Assembly: GCF_028702905.1 (NCBI RefSeq)
Contig: NZ_JAQVNX010000006.1
Span: 1 to 43,571, forward strand
DNA length: 43,571 nt
Direction: 5' to 3'
From: Methanofollis sp.
GTDB taxonomy: Archaea; Halobacteriota; Methanomicrobia; Methanomicrobiales; Methanofollaceae
Both the position numbers and the translations under genes were made by a program. Positions 328 to 4,126 of this stretch are shown here, in pieces (positions within the stretch are counted from its first letter, which is position 1; each line of letters opens with the position of its first letter). The notes beneath the pieces were generated by a model that made no database searches, had not been told where the DNA came from, and saw nothing but the letters and a program-made list of their open reading frames with translations.

Positions 328-1191
328 TTAAAGGAGTTTGGACCGCTGCAGAAGGAGGATGTCCTCGGTCGTGAGTTTCTCCCCGCCCTTGAAGAGCTGG
401 AAGATGCGCTCGGCCTCCTGCCTGACCTCGCGCTGCTCCTTGGTGACCTTTGTCTTCTTCTTCTTGTTGCGGAGACCGGAGATGACTTTGTCATAGTCGC
501 GGAGTTCCTTCTGGCAGGTGATGAATGCCTTGTGTTCCTCGTCAGCGGCTTCCTGCGCCTCGACAAAGGCCTTGTGCTCGGTGTCGGCGGCCTCACGGGA
601 CTGGTCGGCCTTCCGGTAGAACTCGACCATCATGTCGTGGTGCTTCTGCGCGAGTTCTGCAACTTCGGTCACCCTGTCGTGGATGTCTGAGGCTTCCTTA
701 CGAAGGTCACGGGCGCTCTGGAGTTTGGTCTTGAGGTCCTTGTTCTGCTCAAGTTCGTCCTCCTGCTCCTTGATAGTGGCCTTCATGTGCTTGATCTTGT
801 CGATCAGCTCCCTCTCTTTGTCGGTAGAGAAGACCTCGGTCTGCTGGCGGAACTCCATCGCCTCGATCTGGCGCTGGATTTCTTTGATGCTTGCATTCTT
901 CTGGAAGGCGGAGTGATCCTTCTTGAAGGATTCGATCTCTTCGAAGTACTCGTTGGCCTTGGCGTTGAGCTGGTTCCGCTCGTCCTTCAGCCGGTGGACC
1001 TCATTATTGGACTGGTCCCGGAGCTCCTTATTCTTCTGGGCCTCCTCGACAAACTCCCGGGTCTGGGTGTTGAGCTGGTTCCGCTCACGAGCACGGGTGC
1101 TCGCAAGGGCGTTAAGCTCGTTGCGCCGATTTTTATGCTGTTCAGACTCGGAAAGTGATTTTTTTCTCTTTTCGATCAGTTCATCCAACAT
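328..1191 (-). CDS. Archaeal coiled-coil protein (COG1340-like)
   Basis: This 287-residue protein is almost entirely charged and helical (runs of E, K, R, Q with heptad-like spacing from residue 1 to about 250), with no signal peptide or membrane segment. It matches the look of the uncharacterised archaeal coiled-coil family COG1340: MLDELIEKRKKSL at the start, repeated 'RNQLN' turns near residues 37 and 72, a basic KKKKTKV patch near residue 245, and a short compact tail (FQLFKGGEKLTTEDILLLQR) that could be a small folded module. It is likely cytosolic; the role is unknown. The start is ATG at 1191, with a TATA-like CCTATACAG about 34 nt upstream. It stands alone between the ftsZ and DUF373 transcription units, both on the same strand. 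Confidence 0.75.
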   Translation of the reverse strand: MLDELIEKRKKSLSESEQHKNRRNELNALASTRARERNQLNTQTREFVEEAQKNKELRDQSNNEVHRLKDERNQLNAKANEYFEEIESFKKDHSAFQKNASIKEIQRQIEAMEFRQQTEVFSTDKERELIDKIKHMKATIKEQEDELEQNKDLKTKLQSARDLRKEASDIHDRVTEVAELAQKHHDMMVEFYRKADQSREAADTEHKAFVEAQEAADEEHKAFITCQKELRDYDKVISGLRNKKKKTKVTKEQREVRQEAERIFQLFKGGEKLTTEDILLLQRSKLL

Positions 1192-1594: not shown

Positions 1595-2749
1595 TCAGAG
1601 GAAATCGATGAGGTGGCCGCTCGTCTGGTCCCGTGCGAAACTCCGCTGGGGGGCTGCCGACCTGCCGCCCGGCATGGGTGCGGGCTTGCTCGCGGGGATG
1701 AAGTTGCTCTGCCTGCCGCCAAGGATCTGGGCGCTCTTGACGCCGGTCATGATTGCCATGACTCTGACCTTCCCTTCGTAGTCGTTGTTCACGCGTGCGC
1801 CCCAGATGACGTCGGCGTGGGGGTCGAGTTCGTAGGTGAGGGAGCTTGCGATCTCCTCGGCGTCCTGGAGGGTGAGGTCGCTGCCGCCGGTGATGTGGAT
1901 GAGGCTGCCCGTGGCGCCGCGGTAGTCGATGTCCAGCAGGGGGTGGGAGAGGCATTCGTGGACGACGCTCTCGGCCTTGTTCTGCTGTTTGCTCTCGCCG
2001 ACGAGCATGCAGGCGACGCCGCCCTTGCTCATGATCGCCCGCACGTCTGCGTAGTCGATGTTGATGAGGGAGGGCTGGGTGATCGTCTCGGAGATGCCCT
2101 TCACCGTCTCGGCGATGAGCTGGTCCATCACCGAGAAGGCCTGGCCAAGGGGCAGGTTGGGGACATAGTTGATGAGCCGGTTGTTGTCGAGGACAATCAC
2201 CGAGTCGGCGTTGCTGGCGAGTTGCTGGAGGCCGTCCTCCGCGCGGAGCAGGCGTGCCTTCTCGACCTGGAAGGGGTAGCTGACCATGCCGACGACGATG
2301 GCGCCCTGTTCCTTGGCAATCTGTGCAACAACGGGGGCGACGCCTGTGCCGGTGCCGCCGCCCATGCCGGCCGTGATGAAACAGAGATCGGCTGTCTCAA
2401 GGAGTTTTTCCAGAGTGGGGCGCGCCATCTCCGCGGCCCTCTTGCCGACGTCGGGGAACCCGCCTGCGCCAAGGCCCTTGGTGAGCGACTTGCCGATGAG
2501 GATGCGCTTGTCGGCCTGGATCATGTCGAGATGCTGCTTGTCGGTGTTGATCGCGATCGTCTCGGCTCCACAGACCTGCATGTGGTAAAGCCTGTTGATC
2601 GTGTTGTTGCCGGCGCCTCCGCAACCGACGATGACGATGCGCGGCTGGCCGAGGAAATCGTCTTCGTCGCCGATGATACCGTCCTGACTATTCAGTGTTT
2701 TCTCGCGTTCAGCGTTTTTCATTGCCTCGTTGATGATTGTTTGCATCAT
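1595..2749 (-). CDS. ftsZ: Cell division protein FtsZ
   Basis: FtsZ is the tubulin-like GTPase that builds the division ring. The 384-residue product has an N-terminal extension of about 35 residues, then the Rossmann start [17 protein letters not shown] (37-53), the tubulin signature GGGTGTG (130-136) that binds GTP phosphates, and the T7-loop segment NIDYADVR (230-237) that supplies catalytic acid residues to the neighbouring subunit. The C-terminal domain follows to about 350, then a flexible tail rich in P, G and S ending TSGHLIDFL. Length and motifs are full. It lies 7 bp downstream of a ribbon-helix-helix gene in the same direction; in haloarchaea this arrangement (cdrS-ftsZ2) marks the FtsZ2 type, so an FtsZ2-like role is likely but inferred. 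A T-tract follows the stop codon. Confidence 0.96.
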
Positions 2750-2756
2750 GTGCCTC

Positions 2757-2933
2757 CTAAACCTTGAATGACACCTGGTCGCTCTCCCTCATTGCCCGGT
2801 CTCCACGCTTTTCGACGAGTTCCCGTACCGCGTGTCGTACCGCCTCTGACACGGTGGGAAATTCGCCGCCGTCAACAAGCCTTTGCAGCATATCGACCTG
2901 CTGTTTGGGGAGTCTGATCGTGATCCGCTCCAT
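2757..2933 (-). CDS. cdrS: CdrS-like ribbon-helix-helix regulator
   Basis: This 58-residue protein begins [20 protein letters not shown], a classic ribbon (RITIRLP) followed by two helices with the [11 protein letters not shown] second helix; such proteins bind DNA as dimers through the paired ribbons. An upstream GTG at 2957 would add 8 residues, but I prefer the ATG at 2933: it has GAGG on the minus strand about 7 nt ahead, it matches the family's MER start, and the GTG lies inside a perfect palindrome that looks like an operator. The gene ends 7 bp before ftsZ. In Halobacterium and Haloferax, CdrS is a short RHH protein cotranscribed with ftsZ2 and regulating cell division genes; the same role is inferred here. 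The basic/acidic tail after residue 45 is short. Confidence 0.85.
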
Positions 2934-2948
2934 CTTCCGCCTCGGGGG

Positions 2949-3021
2949 GTCTGACACTTGTCAGACGTTTGTCTGTCTCATGCCAGACGGGGGGATGCTC
3001 TACGTCTGATCCTGCACCAGA
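2949..3021 (-). promoter_or_regulatory. Operator array and promoter of cdrS-ftsZ
   Basis: Three 18-bp units with GTCTG...CAGAC ends lie upstream of cdrS: a perfect palindrome at 2949-2966 (arms GTCTGACA and TGTCAGAC, 2-nt centre), an imperfect one at 2971-2988, and a weaker one at 3004-3021 ending CAGA. The first two start 22 bp apart, about two helical turns. A TATA-like TTTTTATAG on the minus strand at about 3044-3052 would place transcription start near 3020, within the outermost unit. RHH proteins typically bind such short inverted repeats and repress their own promoter. Confidence 0.65.
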
Positions 3022-3127
3022 TGAATGAACTAATACGAGCATCCTATAAAAAGATTCTCAATTGATTTTTTCTGAAAGCGTATTCTTATATGCCATGGAA
3101 TGCCAAATTTGCGTGATATTCGTCAAT

Positions 3128-4126
3128 ATGTCAGGGACGTATCCCCGCCGGATCGAACACGGCGGCAGACTCAGGTGGCACAGGCGGCATTCGGGAGAAA
3201 ATATTCTTGATTTTAGTGCAAGCATCAACCCTTTCCCTCCGCATGTCCCCTTCTCCACCCCGGAAGAGGCGATTGCGTCCTACCCCGATGACGGATATGA
3301 AACCCTGAAAGAGGCGATCGGGCAGGTGTTTCACCGTGACCCCGCGGAGATCACGGTGGGAAACGGGTCTGTCGAGGTGATCCGCGCGTTCTGTGTCGCC
3401 GCTATCAGGCCCGGCGAGAGCGGTGCGATCAGGCCTCCGACCTTCGGGGAATATGAGATGGCGGTCAGACTCTGCGGAGGCAGGGTGACCGATGATGCGG
3501 CCGGTGCGGCTGTCAGGTTCCTCTGCAACCCGAACAACCCTGACGGTGCGCTCACCGCGCGGGAGGCGGTGCTCGCCATCCTCGACACCCTCAAACCCGG
3601 CCAGCGCCTTTTTGTCGACGAGGCCTTCATTGAACTTGCCGACCCGGCCGCAAGCGTCTCTAACGTCAGGGACCCAGCGCTCTTCGTCTCACGCTCGATC
3701 ACCAAGTCCTTTGCCGTCCCCGGCCTCAGGTTCGGTTTCGGCTTCGGCGATGCCGACCTTGTCGCGGAGATCGAGGCGCGCCGCCTTCCCTGGACGGTGA
3801 ATGCCTATGCCGAGAGTTTTGCCCTGGCCGCACTGGACAGGTATGCCGACCTTGGCGAATCCCGGAGGCTTATCGAGATCGAGCGGGCCTGGCTTGCAGG
3901 GCGACTCCGCGACCTCGGTCTCTCTCCCCTGCCGTCCACGGCAAACTACATCCTGGTCCCCCTTCCCTGCCATGCGTCGGCACTTACGGAACGCCTCCTC
4001 CTCTCCCACGACATTCTTGTCCGTGACTGCACCTCTTTTGGCCTGCCCGGGATGATCCGGGTTGCGGTGCGGAGGCGTGACGAGAACATGCGCCTTGTGG
4101 AGGCACTTGCGGCATGCTTGCCCTGA
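3128..4126 (+). CDS. cobD: Threonine-phosphate decarboxylase, cobalamin synthesis
   Basis: A PLP enzyme of the histidinol-phosphate aminotransferase fold. From the chosen ATG (3128) it starts MSGTYPRRIEHGGRLRWHRR and continues ILDFSASINPFPP; the HGG plus DFSxxINP pattern is typical of CobD, which makes (R)-1-amino-2-propanol phosphate for the cobalamin nucleotide loop, rather than of HisC. The PLP lysine is in SRSITKSFAVPGLRFGF, preceded by the CNPNNPDG turn. The frame is open back to 3062, but a TATA-like TTATAT at about 3085-3092 lies between the two starts, favouring 3128. The end overlaps the following cobY gene by 13 bp, which strongly supports a cobamide role. HisC function remains the main alternative. 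Confidence 0.85.
   Translation: MSGTYPRRIEHGGRLRWHRRHSGENILDFSASINPFPPHVPFSTPEEAIASYPDDGYETLKEAIGQVFHRDPAEITVGNGSVEVIRAFCVAAIRPGESGAIRPPTFGEYEMAVRLCGGRVTDDAAGAAVRFLCNPNNPDGALTAREAVLAILDTLKPGQRLFVDEAFIELADPAASVSNVRDPALFVSRSITKSFAVPGLRFGFGFGDADLVAEIEARRLPWTVNAYAESFALAALDRYADLGESRRLIEIERAWLAGRLRDLGLSPLPSTANYILVPLPCHASALTERLLLSHDILVRDCTSFGLPGMIRVAVRRRDENMRLVEALAACLP

Follow-up and report, generated by a model that had tools for sequence, protein, structure and literature searches.

A helically phased array of palindromic boxes at the cdrS-ftsZ promoter of Methanofollis, a likely operator for negative autoregulation by CdrS

The window analysed here, a stretch of 43,571 nt from a Methanofollis contig, carries genes for tetraether lipid synthase and for methanogenesis marker 14 (TIGR03285), which identifies its host as a methanogen. 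Near one end, an ftsZ gene with its ATG at 2749 is preceded on the same strand by a 58-codon gene, cdrS, that ends 7 bp upstream. The proposal that a ribbon-helix-helix (RHH) gene and ftsZ form a pair of the cdrS-ftsZ2 kind is borne out both by the gene positions and by a Pfam RHH_1 match of E = 1.8e-7, above cut-off. The features of the locus are as follows.

1595-2749, minus strand: ftsZ, of the cdrS-linked FtsZ2 type (TIGR00065, 413 bits), 7 bp after cdrS
2757-2933, minus strand: cdrS, 58-aa RHH regulator (MERITIRLP...), from RHH_1 and CdrS models and orthologues
2948-2956, minus strand: box 4, TGTCAGACC, from a scan in 11-bp register
2959-2967, minus strand: box 3, CGTCTGACA, forming with box 4 the palindrome 2949-2966
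2970-2978, minus strand: box 2, AGACAGACA, from the same 11-bp register scan
2981-2989, minus strand: box 1, CGTCTGGCA, forming with box 2 the imperfect copy 2971-2988
3003-3011, minus strand: upstream box, GATCAGACG, seen in the sequence, an element that recurs in relatives
3015-3023, minus strand: CATCTGGTG, a weak partner to the box at 3003-3011 at a spacing of 12 bp
3044-3053, minus strand: TATA box, TTTTTATAGG, of the cdrS-ftsZ promoter, seen in the sequence

The CdrS protein of the window matches the NCBIfam CdrS model with an E-value of 6.8e-18 and 64.4 bits, below the cut-off of 100 bits; this equivalog model was built from haloarchaea, and the sub-cut-off score marks a difference of clade, all listed methanogens of the order scoring 57-70 bits. 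Judged by synteny, the protein is a CdrS orthologue that lies outside the haloarchaeal equivalog. Its AlphaFold monomer has the two predicted RHH helices at residues 10-21 and 28-53 (pLDDT 84). Of the 232 genomes of the order, 213 have an orthologue of CdrS, and ftsZ lies downstream at 100/100 cdrS loci. A second FtsZ gene of the window genome, ftsZ1, is located on another contig (C102). Two further neighbours may be mentioned. A coiled-coil protein of the DUF7121 family is encoded at 328-1191 (minus strand), downstream of ftsZ in the same direction, and a divergent gene at 3128-4126 (plus strand) starts upstream of the cdrS promoter; the nearest model for the latter is CobD, threonine-phosphate decarboxylase (246.5 bits, sub-cut-off). 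In H. volcanii, knock-down of cdrS affects cobalamin genes (PMC8406309), a correspondence that is perhaps coincidental.

Comparison of the regions upstream of cdrS orthologues indicates that the unit behind the palindromes of this promoter is a 9-bp odd palindrome, TGTCWGACA (TGTCNGACA), repeated with a period of 11 bp. The earlier note had described a perfect 18-bp palindrome, an imperfect copy 22 bp away and a third, weaker copy at the presumed transcription start. The first of these, GTCTGACACTTGTCAGAC at 2949-2966, is present and exceeds chance, the window containing two matches to the palindrome at up to three mismatches where 0.11 would be expected, but it consists of two perfect 8-bp arms around an asymmetric CT centre. 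The second lies at 2971-2988 as described, the 22 bp being the distance from start to start and the gap only 4 bp. Both are pairs of 9-bp boxes, so that the two palindromes amount to four consecutive boxes, and the 18-mer that spans them (2960-2977) matches too. The third, at 3003-3023, does lie near the start predicted from the TATA box; it is made up of half-boxes 12 bp apart, of which the inner one, 22 bp or two turns from box 1, is in the 11-bp register of the array. In relatives the boxes of this upstream pair are separated by 10-12 bp. Scored as four boxes at a period of 11 bp, the cdrS promoter reaches 26 of 32, compared with 19 for the next-best position in the window and at most 18 for any other period. 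When the window was shuffled 200 times with dinucleotides preserved, the highest score was 23.

The TATA box predicts a transcription start for cdrS at approximately 3015-3022, near the extra upstream pair, and boxes 1-4 therefore fall in the predicted transcribed leader. The same arrangement is apparent in relatives, where a TATA-like element (present in 55/60) has its start at a median position of -116 relative to the cdrS ATG. The array spans approximately -57 to -14, and thus follows the TATA box and falls for the most part within the leader predicted from it.

Conservation of the array extends across the order, so that the refutation named in the earlier note, a lack of conserved palindromes in related genomes, fails decisively. 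Among 49 non-redundant upstream regions of the order, distances between boxes fall on multiples of 11 bp, with 83 pairs at 11 bp (0.45 expected), 94 at 22 bp (0.15 expected), 70 at 33 bp (0.1 expected), and 31 and 33 at 44 and 55 bp, respectively (expected values in the range 0.1-0.45). With a 4-box score of at least 22 taken as the threshold, an array of period 11 is found at 58/60 loci of the order and at 9/10 loci of other methanogens, against none of these 60 and 10 loci at periods 9, 10, 12 or 13 and none of 935 flanking windows. A profile of the array, built from sequence with no structure (R1), detects it in 204/232 genomes of the order. In all 68 genomes compared by position, the best match stops 10-24 bp short of the cdrS start codon. 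Methanogen arrays range from 4 to 8 boxes, some having about 8 units as in genome G294, in whose family an array at E<1e-3 was found in only three genomes, each with a strong CdrS. That the palindromes should be functionless products of chance has next to no probability: one-mismatch two-box sites elsewhere in the genome do occur at background level only (8, compared with 5 for a reversed control), as chance would have it, but conservation, phasing and position across the order refute this explanation for the cdrS promoter. The array and CdrS also occur together, with an array in 203/213 genomes that have CdrS compared with 1/19 of those that do not. The joint absences are probably for the most part shared assembly gaps, and this co-occurrence is therefore to be read as linkage rather than function.

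Within the genome the array is close to unique. It is the top R1 match in 12/12 genomes of the window's genus, where matches beyond cdrS are weak, and the R1 search of genome G000 yielded no other convincing array. The further copies near division genes for which a search had been proposed did not materialise, as the only convincing array of the genome is the one at cdrS and no box lies near ftsZ1 on contig C102; ftsZ1 was thus discarded as a CdrS target in the window genome. Those of the weak matches that were considered as further targets were mostly a different repeat, TATCGGACATT, or a site inside a coding region, and secondary matches in the genus of G047 include no conserved second target. 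The TATCGGACATT element is another 11-bp tandem repeat and not a CdrS box; two families of the order have it just 3' of an ORF that is conserved (MIESQNIEFKESWKDEYLKTLCAFANT...; L161:1473, L338:1483, L339:1473).

Two other occurrences of boxes were noted. The two-box site GTCAGACAAAGGTCATAC recurs at the ends of contigs C26 and C72 and in other genomes of the genus; in G000 (C26:72-89 and C72:39-56) these contig-end sites read GTATGACCTTTGTCTGAC, a site present in several places in the genus and without a match in Rfam. In another genus of the order (g34; loci L149-L159 and L166, e.g. L154:1474), a second array of 2-3 boxes in 11-bp register lies, in about ten genomes, upstream of a gene for a 106-aa protein (MSGEIYQAQVIRNFFECITG...) with no Pfam match above cut-off. 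In g34 this gene is thus a candidate for a second target of CdrS; its orthologues in the window's genus have no array.

Evidence as to which protein occupies the array comes from haloarchaea. ChIP-seq of CdrS in H. volcanii identified 18 sites that share a symmetric motif (Liao et al. 2021, PMC8406309). Among these is a site at ftsZ1, located 50 nt upstream of its transcription start (PMC8406309). In the 150 nt upstream of ftsZ1 at 80 named haloarchaeal loci, H. volcanii itself excepted, the best match to GTCTGAC-N4-GTCAGAC reaches at least 11/14 positions in 79/80 cases, the maximum in control windows being 10, and nearly all of these pairs are centred 53-58 nt before the ATG. In Haloferax the site is GTCAGACAGATGTCTGAC or a close variant, mostly centred at -58, and is the same 18-bp pair as found in the window; a TATA-like element places the start at about -8, and the site hence about 50 nt upstream of the inferred start. 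Since this is the position reported for CdrS by ChIP-seq, we take the box pair to be a CdrS site. The identification of the Haloferax pair with the CdrS motif is strong but indirect, as the H. volcanii motif is deduced from Haloferax relatives and the reported distance, at the ftsZ1 target only. On the protein side, residues R3, T5 and R7 of the beta-strand are invariant in 100/100 CdrS orthologues from methanogens and haloarchaea, and the residues at the equivalent positions of RelB (S3, D5 and R7) contact bases in a model of its DNA complex (PMC2812701).

The regulator of the array is almost certainly CdrS, and binding of methanogen CdrS to the array at its own promoter appears highly probable from these sequence comparisons. 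A different regulator, of the RHH type or not, could be imagined in its place, given that the protein known to bind the equivalent promoter in Halobacterium is CdrL, with no such binding known for CdrS (PMC7439475). We regard this as improbable, however, as CdrL has been reported from Halobacteria only (PMC7439475), the box of methanogens is identical to that of the pair at haloarchaeal ftsZ1, whose location agrees with the ChIP position of CdrS, and genomes of the order tend to have the array and CdrS together.

Several adjacent sites in helical register, as they lie at the cdrS promoter, are a feature of the tandem operators of RHH proteins such as RelB, Arc and MetJ. Arc is an RHH autorepressor whose dimers bind adjacent half-sites of about 11-12 bp, and MetJ dimers bind cooperatively to arrays of met boxes, tandem short palindromes of 8 bp with a period of 8 bp. 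The cdrS array shares with the latter its tandem short palindromic boxes, but these are of 9 bp with a period of 11 bp, and no effector is known here. Likewise, RelB dimers occupy adjacent half-sites of about 11-12 bp on one face of the DNA and repress their own promoter (PMC2812701). Unlike RelB and Arc, which use two half-sites, cdrS has four to eight boxes, and neither a toxin nor a phage context is present. Among archaeal RHH proteins, SegB of Saccharolobus is comparable in having palindromic sites upstream of its own operon and a suggested feedback loop, but it differs in its motif (TCTAGASTCTAGA), in its many chromosome-wide sites and in its function in segregation (PMC12284271).

We propose that CdrS binds this phased operator at its own promoter and represses cdrS-ftsZ, a reading of negative autoregulation to which we assign a probability of roughly 0.74. 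The palindromes would be part of an operator presenting one TGTCWGACA box per 11 bp on one face of the DNA, on which CdrS dimers would sit side by side, one dimer per box, with R3, T5 and R7 of the beta-strand inserted into the major groove. As the array begins close to where transcription starts and extends along the leader until about 15 bp remain before the cdrS start codon, its occupancy should block initiation or early elongation, and repression of its own operon by CdrS would hold both CdrS and FtsZ at a set level. The suggestion that cdrS regulates itself is in this respect well supported as far as binding to its own promoter goes, the boxes being conserved and matching the haloarchaeal ftsZ1 pair; the sign is what we infer from their position. 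Archaeal factors bound upstream of a promoter usually activate, while those bound at or downstream of it usually repress (PMC8406309), and with the array placed 3' of the TATA box negative autoregulation is the likeliest outcome.

The sign could differ from this, with CdrS binding the array but activating its own operon. When CdrS is lost, expression of ftsZ2 falls in Halobacterium (PMC7439475), as does that of ftsZ1 in H. volcanii (PMC8406309), and haloarchaeal CdrS has been characterised as an activator of ftsZ2 (PMC7439475), albeit not one found at its own promoter (PMC8406309). Such positive autoregulation seems unlikely to us, although slightly less so than the involvement of another regulator, since the haloarchaeal ftsZ1 pair lies upstream of the TATA box, the usual place of an activator, whereas the methanogen array lies downstream, a place linked to repression (PMC8406309). 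The location in the predicted leader would also suit repeats acting as RNA, with hairpins controlling translation or termination. Taken singly, leaders do fold more stably than their mononucleotide shuffles (mean z -3.6), and that of the window has z -1.66 relative to dinucleotide shuffles; quasi-palindromes, however, must fold in this way. RNAalifold returned no consensus pair across 35 arrays, neighbouring boxes have the same orientation in about a quarter of cases, the period of 11 bp is that of B-DNA, and the haloarchaeal ftsZ1 pair, being upstream of the TATA box, would not be transcribed from that promoter. A role as RNA is accordingly very improbable.

The expectation that division control in methanogens is close to the haloarchaeal scheme is supported for the locus and fails for its wiring. 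The CdrS-FtsZ2 loci of Halobacterium salinarum and Haloferax volcanii are alike in gene order, CdrS size and RHH fold (PMC7439475, PMC8406309), and haloarchaeal CdrS shares the strand residues R3, T5 and R7 and the recognition pair GTCNGAC-N4-GTCNGAC. The haloarchaeal circuit, however, includes CdrL, which combines an RHH domain with a zinc ribbon (PMC7439475), was mapped at the cdrS-ftsZ2 promoter of Halobacterium and is reportedly absent outside Halobacteria (PMC7439475). The sites mapped for haloarchaeal CdrS are at ftsZ1, dacZ, proteasome genes and others, and the H. volcanii ChIP-seq list has none at cdrS (PMC8406309). In methanogens, by contrast, an array of 4-8 boxes is found at cdrS itself, and ftsZ1 of the window genome has no box. 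A 4-box array of period 11 was found in 0/30 haloarchaeal cdrS promoters; these promoters (L035-L064) have instead paired boxes that differ by one base, GTAAGAC/GTCTTAC, in many cases at a spacing of 11 bp, which may be CdrL sites. A CdrL-like protein encoded upstream of one haloarchaeal cdrS locus has the strand KITFR, compared with R[IV]T[IL]R in CdrS. Binding of CdrL, the missing CdrS site and the variant box at haloarchaeal cdrS together argue that the wiring of methanogens is different.

It is tempting to speculate that the 11-bp array of CdrS boxes at cdrS-ftsZ represents an ancestral, self-limiting switch of division-protein supply in the phylum. Haloarchaea might then have lost the array when the promoter was handed over to the paralogous CdrL through a one-base change of the box (GTCAGAC to GTAAGAC, with R-T-R in CdrS and K-T-R in CdrL), freeing CdrS for a wider regulon that includes ftsZ1. 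Such a handover would explain both the variant box and the strand difference at haloarchaeal cdrS, but we put it forward as a tentative scenario, somewhat less probable than its opposite.

No description of this array was found in the literature searched, and a phased operator array at the own promoter of CdrS, a known division regulator, appears to be new. Very few regulators are known that control the transcription of cell-division genes in archaea, and for one of them, CdrS, the array supplies a defined recognition box, repeated every 11 bp, outside haloarchaea. It leads to the prediction that methanogens limit their FtsZ supply by autorepression and suggests that the circuit was rewired between methanogens and haloarchaea, and its position would explain how the same protein may repress cdrS and activate ftsZ1.
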